A stretch of DNA of 64,000 nucleotides. Source: an uncultured Clostridia bacterium (GTDB lineage: Bacteria; Bacillota; Clostridia; Lachnospirales; Anaerotignaceae). Position numbers and translations under genes: made by a program. Under the pieces are notes generated by a model. It was given only the letters and a program-made list of their open reading frames with translations. It did not search any database and was not told the origin of the DNA. The DNA is taken from NCBI GenBank assembly GCA_944383885.1, contig CALWRF010000030.1, positions 1 through 64,000 of the forward strand. The letters are read 5' to 3'. Every line of letters begins with the position of its first letter. Position 1 is the first letter of the stretch. Below are positions 49,230 through 56,074 of the stretch, piece after piece.

Positions 49230-50132
49230 TTATTCGCTCTTTGGCGCATCGTCTTTTTTAGCTTCTTCAGCGGCAGGAGCGGCAGCCTTTGCAGCAGCTT
49301 CTTCAGCAGCTTTTTTAGCAGCCATAGCTTCTGCTCTTTCATTCTTAATAGCGTGTTTTGGACACTTCATAGCACAAAGACCACAGTCTTTACACTTTGA
49401 GTAATCAATAACAGCTACGTTGTTTTCTACATGGATAGCGTCGAACTTACAGTTCTTTTCGCATATCTTACAGCCGATACATCCTGTTGAGCAGTTAGCG
49501 TTAACTTCTTTGCCAGCGTCTTTAGAGTTGCATCTAACAGCTGTTTTCTTTGATTTTGGTTTGAAAGCGATAAGTCCTTTAGGGCAAGCTTTAACGCATT
49601 TACCGCAGGATACGCATTTTTCTTCATCTACAACAGCTACGCCGTCTACAACAGATAAAGCGCCGAAATCGCAGACATTTACGCATGTGCCAAGACCAAG
49701 ACAGCCGTAAGTACAGCCTTTAGAGCCGCTGCCTGCAAGCTGGGAGGCAAATACACAGTCTGAAATACCTTCGTATGTATATTTGCTCTTAGCGTTTGAG
49801 CAGGTACCGTTACATTTAACAAAAGCAACCTGCGGTTCAGTATCTGCAGCTTCAACACCCATTATGGCAGCTACTTTGTTAGCTACTTTTGAACCGCCTA
49901 CCGGGCAGGCGTTAACAGGAGCTTTGCCTTCAGCAATAGCTGTGGCGCAGCCTGAACAGCCAGGGTAACCGCAACCACCGCAGTTAGCGCCAGGAAGAAC
50001 AGATAATATTTCTCCTACTTTTGGGTCTTCTTCTACTGCGAATATTTTAGAAGCATAACCAAGGAAGCCGCCGAATACAACGCCTAAACCGGAAATGCTG
50101 GCAACTGCAGTTACTATATTAATGATTTCCAT
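49230..50132 (-). CDS. rnfB: Rnf complex subunit RnfB (polyferredoxin)
   Basis: RnfB takes electrons from reduced ferredoxin for the membrane-bound ferredoxin:NAD+ oxidoreductase. The 300-residue protein has an N-terminal membrane helix (about 5-28), the four-cysteine FeS domain (C51, C54, C59, C76 in CGGCGYPGCSGC...C) and ferredoxin-type clusters in CVSCGKCVKAC, CIGCKICEKNC and CKDCGLCAMKC. The last 35 residues are an Ala/Lys/Glu-rich tail (AAKKAAEEAAAKAAAPAAEE), which is unusual and probably disordered or helical. Last gene of the rnfCDGEAB operon. Confidence 0.96.
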   Translation of the reverse strand: MEIINIVTAVASISGLGVVFGGFLGYASKIFAVEEDPKVGEILSVLPGANCGGCGYPGCSGCATAIAEGKAPVNACPVGGSKVANKVAAIMGVEAADTEPQVAFVKCNGTCSNAKSKYTYEGISDCVFASQLAGSGSKGCTYGCLGLGTCVNVCDFGALSVVDGVAVVDEEKCVSCGKCVKACPKGLIAFKPKSKKTAVRCNSKDAGKEVNANCSTGCIGCKICEKNCKFDAIHVENNVAVIDYSKCKDCGLCAMKCPKHAIKNERAEAMAAKKAAEEAAAKAAAPAAEEAKKDDAPKSE

Positions 50133-50151
50133 TATTTAGTTCCCTCCCTGA

Positions 50152-50730
50152 TTAAAGTTTGATTAATCCCGAGAAGCCTAAGAAGGATACTGACATAAGT
50201 CCTGCGCCTATAAGGGCAAGAGGGAATCCGTCAAATGGCTTAGGGATATCGTTATAAGCAATTCTTTCGCGGATACCGGCAAAAAGCACGATTGCGAAAG
50301 CAAAACCGCCGGCACCACCAATACCGTTTACAATGGCCTCAATAAAGTTGTAGCCATTCTGCATGTTTGTAACAGCACATCCTAAAACTGCGCAGTTTGT
50401 TGTTATAAGAGGAAGGTAAACACCAAGTGCCTGATAAAGGGAAGGCGAACTCTTCTTAATAAACATCTCTATAAACTGAACGAGAGCAGCAATAACAAGG
50501 ATGAACGCAATATTATAAAGATATTCAAGTCCAAGCGGAACAAGAATAAGGTTGTAAATGAGCCATGTAGCTGCGCAGGCAAGAACTATAACGAAAATAA
50601 CCGCAATACCCATGCCGGCTGCTGTCTCAACCTTTTTAGAAACACCAAGGAAAGGACAGATGCCTAAGAACTGTGAGAATATGTAGTTATTTACAAATAT
50701 TCCTGCTAATAACAATAATATTAATCGCAT
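50152..50730 (-). CDS. rnfA: Rnf complex subunit RnfA
   Basis: An integral membrane subunit with six helices; RnfA and RnfE form inverted pseudo-twins around a membrane iron-sulfur site. The 192-residue protein has the early LGICPFLGVSKKV (with the cluster-ligand cysteine) and TTNCAVLGCAVTN in the second half. SD AGGAGGGG. It lies between rnfE and rnfB with gaps under 20 bases. Confidence 0.97.
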   Translation of the reverse strand: MRLILLLLAGIFVNNYIFSQFLGICPFLGVSKKVETAAGMGIAVIFVIVLACAATWLIYNLILVPLGLEYLYNIAFILVIAALVQFIEMFIKKSSPSLYQALGVYLPLITTNCAVLGCAVTNMQNGYNFIEAIVNGIGGAGGFAFAIVLFAGIRERIAYNDIPKPFDGFPLALIGAGLMSVSFLGFSGLIKL

Positions 50731-50744
50731 TTTTTCCCCTCCTA

Positions 50745-51359
50745 TTATTCTTCTTCCTCAACTGGTTTTTTGCTGGCTATGCAGTGTTTGAATATAGCCA
50801 TGAAAATACCAAGTGTGAAGAACGCGCCAGGAGCCATTATCATAAGAAGTGTCTTAGGGAATGCTTCCGGCATAATTGTCATTCCGAGTATTGTTCCTGA
50901 ACCGAGGAGTTCACGAATAGCACCCATAATGGCAAGAACCATTGTAAATCCAAGACCATTGCCTAAACCATCGAAGAATGACGGCACAATACCGTTTTTA
51001 GAAGCAAAACCTTCAGCTCTGGCAAGGATAATACAGTTAACAACTATAAGAGGTATGAAAAGTCCAAGGGCGTCATTAATTGCAGGTAAGTATGCCTGTA
51101 AGAGAAGCTGTACTATTGTAACGAATGACGCGATAACTACGATAAAGCAAGGTATACGAACAGTGTCCGGTATAAACTTACGAAGAAGTGAAATAACAAC
51201 ATTTGAGCCTACAAGAACGGCTGTTGTTGAAAGACCCATTCCTAAACCGTTTATAATGCTTGTTGATGTTGCAAGAGTGGCGCACATACCGACAACCTGA
51301 ATAAGAACAGGGTTATCGAATAAAATACCATCTCTTAAAACCTTAAGGTTTTTACTCAT
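50745..51359 (-). CDS. rnfE: Rnf complex subunit RnfE
   Basis: Membrane partner of RnfA with six helices. The frame is open from 51389, but ATG 51359, with SD GGAGGTG, overlaps the rnfG stop by one base and gives 204 residues. It has NPVLIQVVGMCATLATSTS with a cluster cysteine and LIVVNCIILARAEGFASKN. The C-terminus KPVEEEE is acidic. Confidence 0.96.
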   Translation of the reverse strand: MSKNLKVLRDGILFDNPVLIQVVGMCATLATSTSIINGLGMGLSTTAVLVGSNVVISLLRKFIPDTVRIPCFIVVIASFVTIVQLLLQAYLPAINDALGLFIPLIVVNCIILARAEGFASKNGIVPSFFDGLGNGLGFTMVLAIMGAIRELLGSGTILGMTIMPEAFPKTLLMIMAPGAFFTLGIFMAIFKHCIASKKPVEEEE

Positions 51360-51904
51360 TACTGTGCACCTCCGTTTTCTGCTACCCAAGTAATAGCGTC
51401 GTTAACGCCTACTGTGACAGCTCTTGATGTGATAGTGGCACTTGTTATTGATTGAACCTGACCACCGTCTTTATCAACGGCAAGAGTACCGCTCATGCCT
51501 GTGTACTGCTCATAAAAGTCAGGGCTTGTAGCAAGGGCGCCAAGACCAGGTGTTTCTGAAAGAGAAAGTATTCTAACGCCTGTTACTGTGCCTGTTGTAT
51601 CAACGCCGACCATCATCTGTATGCCGCCGCCGAAACCGTTTGATGTACAGCTTATAACATAACCCATTACATTGCCGCTGGAATCTTTACCAACTGTAAC
51701 GCCTGTTACTGTACCGGATAAAGGAGCATCTGCCAATTCTTCAAACTGCGCGTCAGGAAGAACAGCAGCCATAGCTTCGTCTTGTGTTTTCTTAGCCTGA
51801 GCGGCTATAGGCGCCTTTGTAACCTCTGAACAAATACCAAGGCAAAGGGCACATACAAAACATATTACAAACAATCTAATTGCAGGTGTTGTTATCTGTT
51901 TCAT
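51359..51904 (-). CDS. rnfG: Rnf complex subunit RnfG (covalent FMN)
   Basis: A flavoprotein exposed outside the membrane. The 181-residue protein has one N-terminal membrane helix (about 8-27), then an FMN-binding domain, with PGLGALA and the phosphoester-flavin threonine within QSITSATITSRAV (S-x-AT pattern that is flavinylated by ApbE). Its ATG overlaps the rnfD stop by four bases. No apbE gene is in the window. Confidence 0.95.
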   Translation of the reverse strand: MKQITTPAIRLFVICFVCALCLGICSEVTKAPIAAQAKKTQDEAMAAVLPDAQFEELADAPLSGTVTGVTVGKDSSGNVMGYVISCTSNGFGGGIQMMVGVDTTGTVTGVRILSLSETPGLGALATSPDFYEQYTGMSGTLAVDKDGGQVQSITSATITSRAVTVGVNDAITWVAENGGAQ

Positions 51905-52869
51905 GCTTTCTTCGCCTCCTTTGTTTTTGGAAGTGCGCCGAATATCTTACCTACTGTAAACCTGTCAATAAGTGGTACAGCAAGGTTAGAGATAAGTATT
52001 GAGTATGAAACGCCTTCCGGATAACCGCCGTAAACTCTGATAAGATATGTAATAAGACCGCAAAGGCAAGCGTATATTATCTGACCTTTAGGTGTCATAG
52101 GAGATGTGGTATAGTCTGTAGCCATGAATATTGCTCCAAGGAAAAGACCGCCTGTAAATATTTCGTATACAGGCATTCTTGTGCCATATCTGCCGAAAAC
52201 AGCTGTAAGTATAAATACTACTGCTGTGTAAATAACTGGAATTCTCCAGGAAATTACTTTTTTAATTAAAAGATAGATAAAACCGATTACAAGAGCTATA
52301 GCGCATGTCTCACCTATACATCCGCCTATGCCGGAACCTGTTATTACCTGTGTAAGTGTAGGAAGACCAAGGTCTGATACAGCTGCGCCGTCTTTTAATG
52401 TTTTAAGAAGTGCTAAAGGCGTAGCTGTTGTAACACCGTCTACTGTCCATGTTGTCATGGCTGTAGGATATGATGCTAAAAGGAACGCTCTGGCAATAAG
52501 AGCTGGGTTAACAAAGTTCTGACCGATGCCGCCGAAGAGCTGTTTTGCTATTAAAATAGCAAATGCACTTCCTACAATAGGCATCCACCAGCTTGCGCCT
52601 ACAGGTAAGTTAAGCGCAATAAGAAGACCTGTAACTACGGCACTCAAATCGTCTATTGTAACGGTTTTCTTCATTAATTTCTGATAAAGGTATTCAAAGA
52701 AAACGCTTGACACTATTGAAATAGCGATAAGAAGGAGCGCCTTAATACCGAAAAATACAATACCCATCACTGTAGCAGGAACAAGAGCTATTATTACATC
52801 GCGCATAATGCTCTGTACTGATTCGCTGGAACGGACGTGAGGGGTTGACGATACTACTATATTATCCAT
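51901..52869 (-). CDS. rnfD: Rnf complex subunit RnfD (covalent FMN)
   Basis: A polytopic subunit, related to NqrB, that carries a covalent FMN and takes part in ion translocation. The 322-residue protein starts with VVSSTPHVRSSESVQSIMRDV, has about nine membrane helices and the conserved MATDYTTSPMTPKGQ. SD GGGGGAG. Whether the pump moves Na+ or H+ cannot be decided from these motifs. Confidence 0.96.
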   Translation of the reverse strand: MDNIVVSSTPHVRSSESVQSIMRDVIIALVPATVMGIVFFGIKALLLIAISIVSSVFFEYLYQKLMKKTVTIDDLSAVVTGLLIALNLPVGASWWMPIVGSAFAILIAKQLFGGIGQNFVNPALIARAFLLASYPTAMTTWTVDGVTTATPLALLKTLKDGAAVSDLGLPTLTQVITGSGIGGCIGETCAIALVIGFIYLLIKKVISWRIPVIYTAVVFILTAVFGRYGTRMPVYEIFTGGLFLGAIFMATDYTTSPMTPKGQIIYACLCGLITYLIRVYGGYPEGVSYSILISNLAVPLIDRFTVGKIFGALPKTKEAKKA

Positions 52870-52888
52870 TATTTTTTCTCCCCCTTAA

Positions 52889-54271
52889 TTACTTCTTAGC
52901 TTCTGCGGCTTTCTTTTCAGCTTCAGCTTTGGCTTTTGCTGCCGCTGCTGCCGCCGCTTTTTTGCCGGCTTCTATTTTCTTTGTTGCTCTTATGGACTGA
53001 GCAAGCTGTCTTTTAGCTGGACATTCGTATGAACAGCTGCCGCACTCAATGCAGTCAAGACCATGATTTGCAACAAAAGCCTCGCCATCGCCCCTGATAG
53101 CAAACTGGTTAAGCATAAACGGCTGAAGACCCATTGGACAGTGGTCAACACATTTAGCGCAACGGATACAGTTTCTCTCAGGCGGTATGTACGCCTCAGC
53201 CGGTGTAAGGCACAGAAGGGCTGATGATGTTTTTGTTGTTGCAACATCAAGAGTATACATAGTAGGTCCCATCATAGGACCGCCGGCTATCATTTTAGCT
53301 GGCTCTACTTTAAAGCCGCCTATCTGCTCCATAAGGTCTTTGAATGTCATGCCTACACGAATCTGGTAGTTGCCAGGATTTGCCGGAGCGCCGCCTGTAA
53401 CTGTAACTACCCTTCTCATTATAGGTCTGCCTTCTGCTACGGCGTTGTAAATGCTGATGACTGTATCGACATTATCTACAATGCAGCCTACTGAAGCAGG
53501 AAGGGCGCCTGATGGAACTTCTCTTTTTGTAATAGCATAAATAAGGTGTTTTTCTGAGCCTTGAGGGAATTTTTTCTGAAGGGAAGCTACCTCAATGTTA
53601 GGTATGTCCTTTACCATATCGCTGAGAAGCTTTATAGCTTCAGGTTTATTGTCCTCAATGCCTATAACGCCTTTTGCGTTAGGATGGAGCTTAAGCATAA
53701 TCTGAAGACCCTTTATAAGTCTTTCAGGCTGTTCAAGCATAAGACGGTAGTCGCATGTAAGGTAAGGCTCACACTCCGCGCCGTTTACAAGGATATAATC
53801 AATTTTTGTTCCCGGAGGCGGGGCTAATTTTACATGTGTAGGGAATCCGGCACCGCCGAGACCTACTACACCGCCGTTTTTAATTGCGGCGATTATTTCC
53901 TCATTTGTCATCTGAGTATAATCTCCGCCTTTCATGCCCTCGTACTCTGTCATTTTGCCGTCGTTTTTAATAACTACGGCAAGGCTTTTTGCGCCGCCAG
54001 GAGTAAGTACAGGTCTGATATCAGTAACTTCGCCGGATATACTTGAGAAAATAGGTGAGCAGATGAAGGCTTTTGCTTCGCCGATTTTCTGACCTACCTT
54101 TACATAGTCTCCTTTCTGGACGCATGGCTCACATGGGGCACCGATGTGCTGTGACATTGGGAAAAACAATTCGGAATTTTCCTTTGGGAGTATAACCTTA
54201 ATGGCTTTGTCCTGTGTAAGGGCTTTGCCATCTGGCGGATGTACTCCACGTTTGAACGTTAAAGTTTGCAT
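52889..54271 (-). CDS. rnfC: Rnf complex subunit RnfC (NADH side)
   Basis: RnfC binds FMN and NAD+ at the cytoplasmic face. The 460-residue protein starts FKRGVHPPDGKAL, has the nucleotide region GGVVGLGGAGFPTHVKL and the acidic NGAECEPYLTCD, a SLBB-type domain, and two ferredoxin-type clusters, CIRCAKCVDHC and CIECGSCSYEC. It ends in an Ala/Lys/Glu-rich tail (AAAAAAAKAKAEAEKKAAE), like RnfB. First gene of the operon, with SD GGGGG. The leader upstream has a GC-rich structured island. Confidence 0.97.
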   Translation of the reverse strand: MQTLTFKRGVHPPDGKALTQDKAIKVILPKENSELFFPMSQHIGAPCEPCVQKGDYVKVGQKIGEAKAFICSPIFSSISGEVTDIRPVLTPGGAKSLAVVIKNDGKMTEYEGMKGGDYTQMTNEEIIAAIKNGGVVGLGGAGFPTHVKLAPPPGTKIDYILVNGAECEPYLTCDYRLMLEQPERLIKGLQIMLKLHPNAKGVIGIEDNKPEAIKLLSDMVKDIPNIEVASLQKKFPQGSEKHLIYAITKREVPSGALPASVGCIVDNVDTVISIYNAVAEGRPIMRRVVTVTGGAPANPGNYQIRVGMTFKDLMEQIGGFKVEPAKMIAGGPMMGPTMYTLDVATTKTSSALLCLTPAEAYIPPERNCIRCAKCVDHCPMGLQPFMLNQFAIRGDGEAFVANHGLDCIECGSCSYECPAKRQLAQSIRATKKIEAGKKAAAAAAAKAKAEAEKKAAEAKK

Positions 54272-54347
54272 ATTATCCCCCTCTGTTCTTGTGATTTTTA
54301 CACATGAAAAAGTGTAAAGAATGTAAGGTTAAAAAGATTATAACTGC

Positions 54348-54397
54348 ATAAGCAAAGGCGTGGAAAGGTACGTCCAACCGAGCCAAGCCCAGCTTAT
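54348..54397 (-). ncRNA. GC-rich structured element in the rnfC leader
   Basis: A 50-base GC-rich island in an AT-rich 444-base divergent spacer, closed by ATAAGC (54348-54353) and GCTTAT (54392-54397). On the minus strand (the rnfC sense) it holds four G runs, GGG-CTT-GG-CTC-GG-TT-GG (complement of 54374-54390), a possible two-tier G-quadruplex, and a TGGA/TCCA stem. It lies 77 bases before the rnfC ATG, with a TTTACAC/GTGTAAA hairpin between. No known riboswitch class was recognised. Confidence 0.4.
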
Positions 54398-54658
54398 AAT
54401 CAACATTTCTATTTTAATACAAAAACCAATATCCAACAACATATTTTTGTATTTTTTTAAAAATTTTTGCTTATTAAATTTATATGCATAAAACAGGCTT
54501 TTGTATTATTCAATTAGAGTTTACTATTTTTTTCTCATATTGTAAACGGAAATTTATGTAGTTGAAAAACAGTTTCACTTATAGTCAAAACAAAAAACTC
54601 TGTATGTCATGTTTTGAACAGCTGAGTTTTATTTTGTGCGATTTTGATATTTAATCAG

Positions 54659-54687
54659 TTGGCGGTTTGGGTTATAGGTAGTATAAT
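54659..54687 (+). promoter_or_regulatory. Sigma-A-type promoter of rpoN
   Basis: TTGGCG (54659-54664), exactly 17 bases, then TATAAT (54682-54687). The SD of rpoN begins about 15 bases downstream, so the leader is very short. Confidence 0.65.
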
Positions 54688-54715
54688 AAATGTATATCCA
54701 TGGGAGGTGAATGCA

Positions 54716-56074
54716 GTGAATCTTGTGCTTAATACAACCCAAAAGCTGCTTATAAGCCAGAAAATGCTTCAATCCACAACGATACTTCAGATGAGCACGG
54801 CTGAACTTATGGATTATGTAAACACACTGACTGAGGAAAACCCTGTACTTGAGGTTAAAAATAAATATGACTATGACCAGTTGCCCGCAGATGTTTTAAG
54901 AAGAAAAATTGAGTACCTTGATTCTTCCGACGAGCAAAACAGGCTGTACTACCGTCAGGAAAAAGACGATGAAGATGAAAACGACATGTGGAAGTTCCGT
55001 CAGGGCACCGAAGAGAGTCTTGCGGAATTTATTATAAGCCAGATAAATGTGCTTAAAATATCTAAAAAGGAAATGGCGGTATGCGGCTTTATAGCAGGCT
55101 GTCTTGATGAGTCGGGATATTTAAGGCAGACTGACGGGCAGATAGCAAAAAGCCTTAATATAACTGAATATGAGGCACAAAAAGCGGTTGGAATTGTGCA
55201 GAGCCTTGAGCCTGCCGGAGTATGCGCCAGAAATTTATCGGAATGTTTAGCGCTTCAGATTCAAAGACTGGGTATAGAAAATGATGTTTTAAACGCAATT
55301 GTAGAAAATTATCTTGAACTGGTAGGCAAAAACCAGCTCCAGCTTATAGCAAAAAAAATAAAAGCCGCTCTTGAGGAGGTAAGCGCCGCGGTAGGAATAA
55401 TTAAAAACCTTAATCCAAAGCCGGGCAGCGGCTTCATATCCAGCGGCAGTGTGGAATATATAGTGCCGGATGCGGTAGTTACGGGCGGCAACGGTGAATA
55501 CGCCGTAACGCTTAACGACTCTTTTTCGGCTGCGGTTAATATAAGCGGTTTTTATAAAGACATACTTAAAGGCGAAGGGGAAGGCGAGGCAAAGGAGTTT
55601 GTTCATTCTAAAATACGACAGGCGCAATGGGTTGTCAAATGCATCTCAAAAAGAAGGGAAACCCTTTATAACATTATAAGCGCTATTGTGCGTGAACAGA
55701 CGGAGTTTTTTGATAAAGGCGAAGGGTATATAAAACCTCTTGCCTTAAATGACATAGCAGTTGAAGCCGGTATACATGAATCAACTGTAAGCCGTACAGC
55801 AAGGGGAAAATACATACAGTGCAGGCATGGGGTTTATCCGCTTAACTACTTTTTCAGGCAGGCGGCAGCTGAGGCTTTCGGTCAGGGTGTTACACAGGAA
55901 AAAATACAGGCGATGATAAAAAACCTTATAGACAAAGAAGACAAATCAGCGCCTTTAAGCGACAGAAAAATAGCAGAGGAGCTTCTTGCCATGGGCGTTG
56001 GCATATCCAGAAGAACAGTTGCAAAATACAGGGGAATAATGGGCATAAACGGCATAAGCGGCAGAAAATGCTGA
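54716..56074 (+). CDS. rpoN: RNA polymerase sigma-54 factor
   Basis: Sigma-54 directs RNA polymerase to -24/-12 promoters that need an AAA+ activator. GTG 54716 with GGGAGGTG upstream gives the family N-terminus MNLVLNTTQKLLISQKMLQS (region I, glutamine-rich) and 452 residues; an upstream frame from 54644 lies over the promoter. An acidic linker (KDDEDENDMW) is region II. The core-binding region and the HTH (LNDIAVEAGIHESTVSRTARGKYIQ) follow, and the RpoN-box near the end reads SRRTVAKYRG instead of the canonical ARRTVAKYRE. No sigma-54 activator gene is in the window. Confidence 0.95.
   Translation: MNLVLNTTQKLLISQKMLQSTTILQMSTAELMDYVNTLTEENPVLEVKNKYDYDQLPADVLRRKIEYLDSSDEQNRLYYRQEKDDEDENDMWKFRQGTEESLAEFIISQINVLKISKKEMAVCGFIAGCLDESGYLRQTDGQIAKSLNITEYEAQKAVGIVQSLEPAGVCARNLSECLALQIQRLGIENDVLNAIVENYLELVGKNQLQLIAKKIKAALEEVSAAVGIIKNLNPKPGSGFISSGSVEYIVPDAVVTGGNGEYAVTLNDSFSAAVNISGFYKDILKGEGEGEAKEFVHSKIRQAQWVVKCISKRRETLYNIISAIVREQTEFFDKGEGYIKPLALNDIAVEAGIHESTVSRTARGKYIQCRHGVYPLNYFFRQAAAEAFGQGVTQEKIQAMIKNLIDKEDKSAPLSDRKIAEELLAMGVGISRRTVAKYRGIMGINGISGRKC

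Follow-up and report, generated by a model that had tools for sequence, protein, structure and literature searches.

What does a short GC-rich block do in front of the operon for Rnf, which is among the main respiratory ion pumps in many anaerobes and whose operon control is poorly known? In the window, meaning the whole 64,000-nt stretch of DNA that was analysed, NCBIfam matches place rnfC-D-G-E-A-B on the minus strand from 49230 to 54271, and the block lies in the AT-rich spacer between rnfC and the divergently oriented sigma-54 gene rpoN. An earlier note on this DNA had read the block as a structured island in the rnf leader, with a possible G-quadruplex and a cation-sensitive fold. The block was therefore followed through the window and through related genomes as to its fold, its position relative to the promoter, its distribution and the ways in which it might act.

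The GC-rich block and its place in the predicted rnf message

On the plus strand, as the earlier note had described, the 50-base block is framed by ATAAGC (54348 to 54353) and GCTTAT (54392 to 54397); its GC content of 52% compares with 28% for the spacer (54272 to 54643). Across the whole window, 8.8% of 50-nt stretches are equally GC-rich, and the block stands out against its spacer alone. Its assignment to the leader of rnfC also stood, with the distance to the rnfC start (54271, minus strand) corrected from 77 to 76 nt. Read on the rnf strand, the block folds into a hairpin, H1, with the apex GGU-[UGGACGU]-ACC. The fold energy of the window sequence alone was weakly below that of shuffled sequences (z of -1.15, and in a second run z of -1.70 with p of 0.064); the case that H1 is more than a chance fold comes from its relatives and not from the window sequence alone.

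Table 1. Coordinates of H1 and of neighboring features in the window.
Feature	Position	Strand	Basis or remark
rnfD, rnfG, rnfE, rnfA, rnfB	49230..52869	-	TIGR01946, TIGR01947, TIGR01948, TIGR01943, TIGR01944, each above cut-off
rnfC	52889..54271	-	TIGR01945, 509 bits, E 6e-153
Shine-Dalgarno region of rnfC, AGAGGGGGAU	54275..54284	-	
Second hairpin H2 (UUUACAC/GUGUAAA), upstream of the Shine-Dalgarno	54297..54318	-	By eye and family shuffles
3' flank of H1 (UAUGCAGUUAUA with last stem bases)	54339..54347	-	Partly common to the family's hairpin-less leaders
Leader hairpin H1, outer stem AUAAGC/GCUUAU	54348..54397	-	Fold, homologs, covariation
H1, inner stem GGGC/GCCU and UGG/CCA, internal loop, apical stem GGU/ACC		-	
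H1 apical loop UGGACGU	54370..54376	-	U-G-R-R-C-G kept in 13/14 homologs
5' flank of H1, GUUGAUU, predicted first mRNA bases	54398..54404	-	Position conserved across the family
Predicted -10 box TAAAAT	54411..54416	-	TAAAAT or TAGAAT in family leaders
Predicted -35 box TTGTTG, 17-nt spacer	54434..54439	-	
rpoN (sigma-54), divergent neighbor	54716..56074	+	TIGR02395, 389 bits

A -10 box pattern (TAAAAT or TAGAAT) was found in 50/55 family stretches upstream of rnfC, and 49 of these 50 leaders (45/46 distinct) carried TTG 17 nt before it. From the -10 spacing, the +1 position was predicted at 54404, upstream of the hairpin; the hairpin is therefore predicted to be contained in the rnf message, where it begins ~7 nt from the predicted 5' end. 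The claim that the rnf leader holds a structured element was supported, on the rnf strand and downstream of a conserved promoter (TTG-17-TAAAAT). A transcription start downstream of 54348 had been named in the earlier note as grounds for giving up the idea; the rival internal promoter there, TTTCCA-18-TATAAT, was unconvincing, with TATAAT in that place in 6/14 homologs.

Two further features of the leader were recorded. The Shine-Dalgarno of rnfC is an unusual GGGGG run (CAGAGGGGGAUAAU-AUG); GGGGG occurs within the last 20 nt of the rnfC leader in 51/55 family leaders and 15/40 leaders from other families, versus 5/31 of the window's ORFs that were sampled, among them rnfC. H2 is found family-wide with a changing stem sequence (mean z of -2.55 over 49 leaders, 90% of them below -1), and for this hairpin the rnf strand was not favored over the antisense strand (17/49 leaders).

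Distribution of the hairpin among relatives

A match to rnfC was obtained in 57 of the 58 family genomes, and 55 upstream stretches were collected, a set that leaves out two fragments (G010 and G079) and includes one stretch holding only 27 nt. Through identity of this upstream DNA, several of the genomes could be tied to records under the names Candidatus Neoanaerotignum tabaqchaliae, Lachnospiraceae bacterium NSJ-143 (a cultured carrier with the leader of G004), Tyzzerella sp. An114, and Clostridium sp. MD294; the family is probably that around Anaerotignum. With the leader as the query, BLASTN gave matches in 22/59 genomes at E 0.1, the long ones in the genus of the window only. A homologous hairpin of about 45 to 52 nt of RNA was found before rnfC in 14/58 family genomes from six genera, with one copy per genome. 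The model that includes the flanks (R1) produced a single match away from rnfC in the 58 family genomes, which was weak (G076, E 0.136). Searches with the flanked model found 14/392 genomes at the order level, all of them the same carriers as in the family, and 1/391 at the class level, namely, the genome of the window itself.

The hairpin-only model (R2), of which the window sequence is itself a part, matched exactly 54348 to 54397 at an E value of 4.8e-14. Its strong matches (E at most 5.6e-6) fell in 13/58 family genomes, all before rnfC. By eye, 15 weak R2 matches away from rnfC, G076 among them, looked like coding sequence or terminators; this reading left out the family matches L173, L174, L177, and L178 (E 0.28 to 0.99). 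No such hairpin was seen by eye in 40 rnfC leaders from other families, and 44/58 family genomes were without a recognisable copy, so Rnf does not need the hairpin. It is a matter of one copy, one operon, and one small clade.

Some hairpin-less leaders have features of their own. The spot between the promoter and the core leader looks as if it accepted structured inserts. Two leaders from another family, f12 (L121 and L123), have their own GC-rich hairpin-like stretch, unrelated in sequence, between AAGGA and TCCTTAAG. In genus g9, the hairpin-less leaders L064, L065, and L067 contain an inverted repeat, AATAACTG/CAGTTATT, near the predicted start, which changes in step to AATAGCTG/CAGTTATT and AATAAATG/CATTTATT. 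As a structure, the conserved core of the hairpin-less leaders was weak (44-nt stretches, mean z of -0.63, 35 leaders).

Pairing, strand, and loop in the homologs

Fold energies lay below the mean of dinucleotide shuffles in all 14 homologs (z of -1.40 to -4.05), and a Fisher test that took one median p from every genus gave 3.7e-5 over the six genera. The pairing of the two arms was then examined by exchanging them between sequences. Among 10 of the 14 homologs, native arms had a mean energy of -18.2 kcal/mol compared with -13.0 kcal/mol for the chimeras, an average cost of ~5 kcal/mol, and 0/100,000 random matchings were as good as the native one. When all 14 sequences were included, 148 chimeras between genera were formed, and 92% of them folded less well than the average of the natives from which they were built.

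Covariation was assessed in a hairpin-only alignment of 11/14 homologs, from which three were omitted: G003 as a near-copy of the window sequence, G002 for its additional indels, and G017 because it lacks the loop motif. Here, 85.2% of cells were paired versus 75.9% in shuffles, the covariation score was 0.383 versus 0.227, and both sides had changed in 7/16 pairs, amounting to 20 cells. Pairing, covariation score, and double-change cells were each reached by 0/500 shuffles; the number of double-change pairs alone was less striking, with 68/500 shuffles as high. Sliding the partners against each other dropped the pairing to 27 to 51%, and RNAalifold on the same alignment returned 10 pairs, 4 of them with double change. 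A MAFFT alignment of all 14 sequences gave no consensus structure, and in the model-fitted alignment A3 the count was weak (78.3% paired, 18/500 shuffles as high); in our reading, both alignments mis-set the variable arms. Structure kept by compensatory change, as looked for in a cis-regulatory leader RNA, was thus found by covariation in 11/14 homologs and by arm swap in 10/14. Conservation in relatives had been proposed in the earlier note as a check, and on this point the paired bases passed, by compensatory change, whereas the G runs failed, as 3/14 homologs keep the four-run motif.

The fold was stronger on the rnf strand than on the antisense strand in 14/14 homologs, by a mean of 7.0 kcal/mol, which points to the rnf transcript rather than to the DNA or the rpoN side; an element belonging to rpoN was rejected on this strand bias. 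At the level of sequence comparison, the block was shown to be an RNA hairpin of the rnf strand that is kept by compensatory change and only before rnfC.

The best-kept part of the hairpin is its loop. The motif U-G-R-R-C-G was present in 13/14 homologs, the exception being G017, with a 13-pair stem and no loop motif. Between genera, identity was 0.82 in the loop block versus 0.43 and 0.27 in the inner arms. The loop reads UGGACG in six of the 14 sequences, those of the window's own genus, and GAA or GAG in the others. In all 13 leaders with the motif, the loop starts 26 to 28 nt after the predicted +1 (sd of 0.63); distances that vary in these leaders are the 3' arm (18 to 25 nt) and the stretch from the loop to the ATG of rnfC (89 to 112). 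A Levene test of this contrast in spread gave p of 0.0016, a value that is uncorrected for kinship and optimistic since the sequences are related.

How the hairpin may act

Several ways of acting were looked for in the leader. No intrinsic terminator or attenuator, looked for as a GC stem with a run of U behind it, was found in 54200 to 54800; an AU-rich stem before UUUUU was visible by eye in the closest relatives, of the same genus, only. The full-leader fold had suggested masking of the ribosome site; this was rejected, as leaders paired with the initiation region less than their shuffles did, and pairing with the ribosome site was not above shuffles (mean z of +0.63, 49 leaders). A pseudoknot between the loop and the leader was likewise rejected, with no common partner across 13 leaders. 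With no terminator, masking, or loop partner found, what remains is action at the 5' end or via a partner. In addition, a conserved loop at a fixed spacing asks for more than a stem, namely, recognition by a protein or a small RNA, or some function early in transcription.

The explanation that we prefer, holding it with about as much confidence as doubt, is that of a lineage-specific hairpin that acts in cis from the 5' end of the mRNA for rnfCDGEAB, combining protection of this end with a loop that would be read by a trans-acting factor. Transcription would start near 54404; the hairpin, only a few nucleotides behind that start, could protect the AU-rich leader against decay that depends on the 5' end (RNase J type). 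The loop, at its fixed distance from the start, would serve a trans-acting protein or small RNA as its docking site, and this partner would raise or lower the output of the rnf message or the time for which it lasts. As far as was found, the hairpin would act neither by masking of the ribosome site nor by a terminator. Most likely, it tunes how long or how well the rnf messenger is used.

Parts of this explanation have precedent. The aprE leader is an example of a 5'-terminal stabilising stem-loop of Gram-positive mRNA. H1 resembles the aprE type in lying near the 5' end, here a predicted one, with an ordinary Shine-Dalgarno further down; it differs in having an apical loop whose sequence is shared across genera and whose distance from the promoter is fixed. 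According to a review, 5' structures strongly stabilise mRNA in Bacilli, and a hairpin ~7 nt from the 5' end occupies the classic place of a stabiliser against 5'-to-3' decay in Gram-positive bacteria (PMC3997798). Regulation of the same operon has been reported in other Clostridia: in the accessible portions of the sources, rnf is regulated by the protein RseC in Clostridium ljungdahlii (PMC9124969), and translational control of rnf in acetogens appears as a ribosome-profiling effect that is unexplained, its cis features unknown (PMC10684804). These cases concern a protein regulator or the ribosome-profiling effect, and the same portions describe no leader RNA. The papers that we searched do not describe a leader RNA of rnf.

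More tentatively, H1 could represent a new leader-RNA class dedicated to Rnf, in which the fixed-distance loop would be read by a dedicated RNA-binding protein, a small RNA, or the departing RNA polymerase. A rival reading, clearly less likely than the preferred one, is a passive hairpin that stabilises the mRNA or serves as a spacer, its loop owing its retention to nothing more than recent descent or loop stability. Such a hairpin would fit the way in which the stem is kept while its sequence drifts, and larger, non-homologous hairpins do occupy the same spot, from promoter to core leader, in four other leaders: L030 (G031), L044 (G069), L045 (G028), and L054 (G081). It fits less well with a loop that was preserved between genera while the inner arms fell to the identities given above, and with the nearly fixed distance of that loop from the predicted start. 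A stabilising role by itself does not explain the conserved loop.

A riboswitch, that is, a small ligand-binding aptamer sensing a metabolite or ion linked to Rnf, was considered unlikely. It would account for a conserved loop and structure in the leader of an ion-pump operon, and H1 shares with the riboswitch and leader families of Rfam 15 the form of a structured leader before one operon. However, it matches none of them, whether the whole window is scored at the gathering threshold or 54250 to 54720 at E 5, in agreement with the earlier note, which knew of no fitting riboswitch class. Known aptamers have far more conserved bases than the rnf hairpin, in which only about six bases of the loop are conserved. 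Neither of the usual expression platforms, a terminator or a masked ribosome site, was found, nor was a conserved pseudoknot partner, and strong model matches stood before no other gene in the 58 family genomes. Sensing of a cation, as the earlier note had inferred, gained no support.

An operator or promoter element that acts as DNA close to the start of rnf, common to the divergent rpoN, appears quite improbable. The loop and apical stem do form a short dyad at a fixed spacing from the promoter, and rpoN adjoins rnfC in 44/55 family loci; however, the bases of the stem change together and are not themselves preserved, the rnf strand contains G-U pairs, and the antisense fold is the weaker one throughout.

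Two further readings are barely credible. A G-quadruplex with cation-dependent folding was suggested by four G runs (GGG, GG, GG, and GG), which are indeed present on the rnf strand of the window copy, but the homologs that keep them are all of its own genus, none of the 14 has four runs of three or more, G4Hunter scores range from 0.01 to 0.30, and several of the runs are arms of the conserved helix. A CsrA site made up of the GGA of the loop and the GGGGGA of the ribosome site would suit the window's genome, which has csrA, and the six UGGACG loops of its genus, but not the other loops, and 7/14 hairpin genomes lack a csrA match, three of these being at least 98% complete. In the family as a whole, csrA (PF02599) is patchy, with matches in 25/58 genomes and several copies in some.

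H1 is accordingly filed as a cis-acting leader hairpin, a known kind of element, without a family name. Its confinement to six genera gives it a modest reach unless the partner of the loop is more widespread. Being small and sharply delimited, with a loop that is well defined, it offers a concrete target for deletion, for mutation, and for use as bait. Should H1 represent the dedicated leader-RNA class considered above, the hairpin would be a point at which a respiratory ion pump is controlled at the level of RNA.
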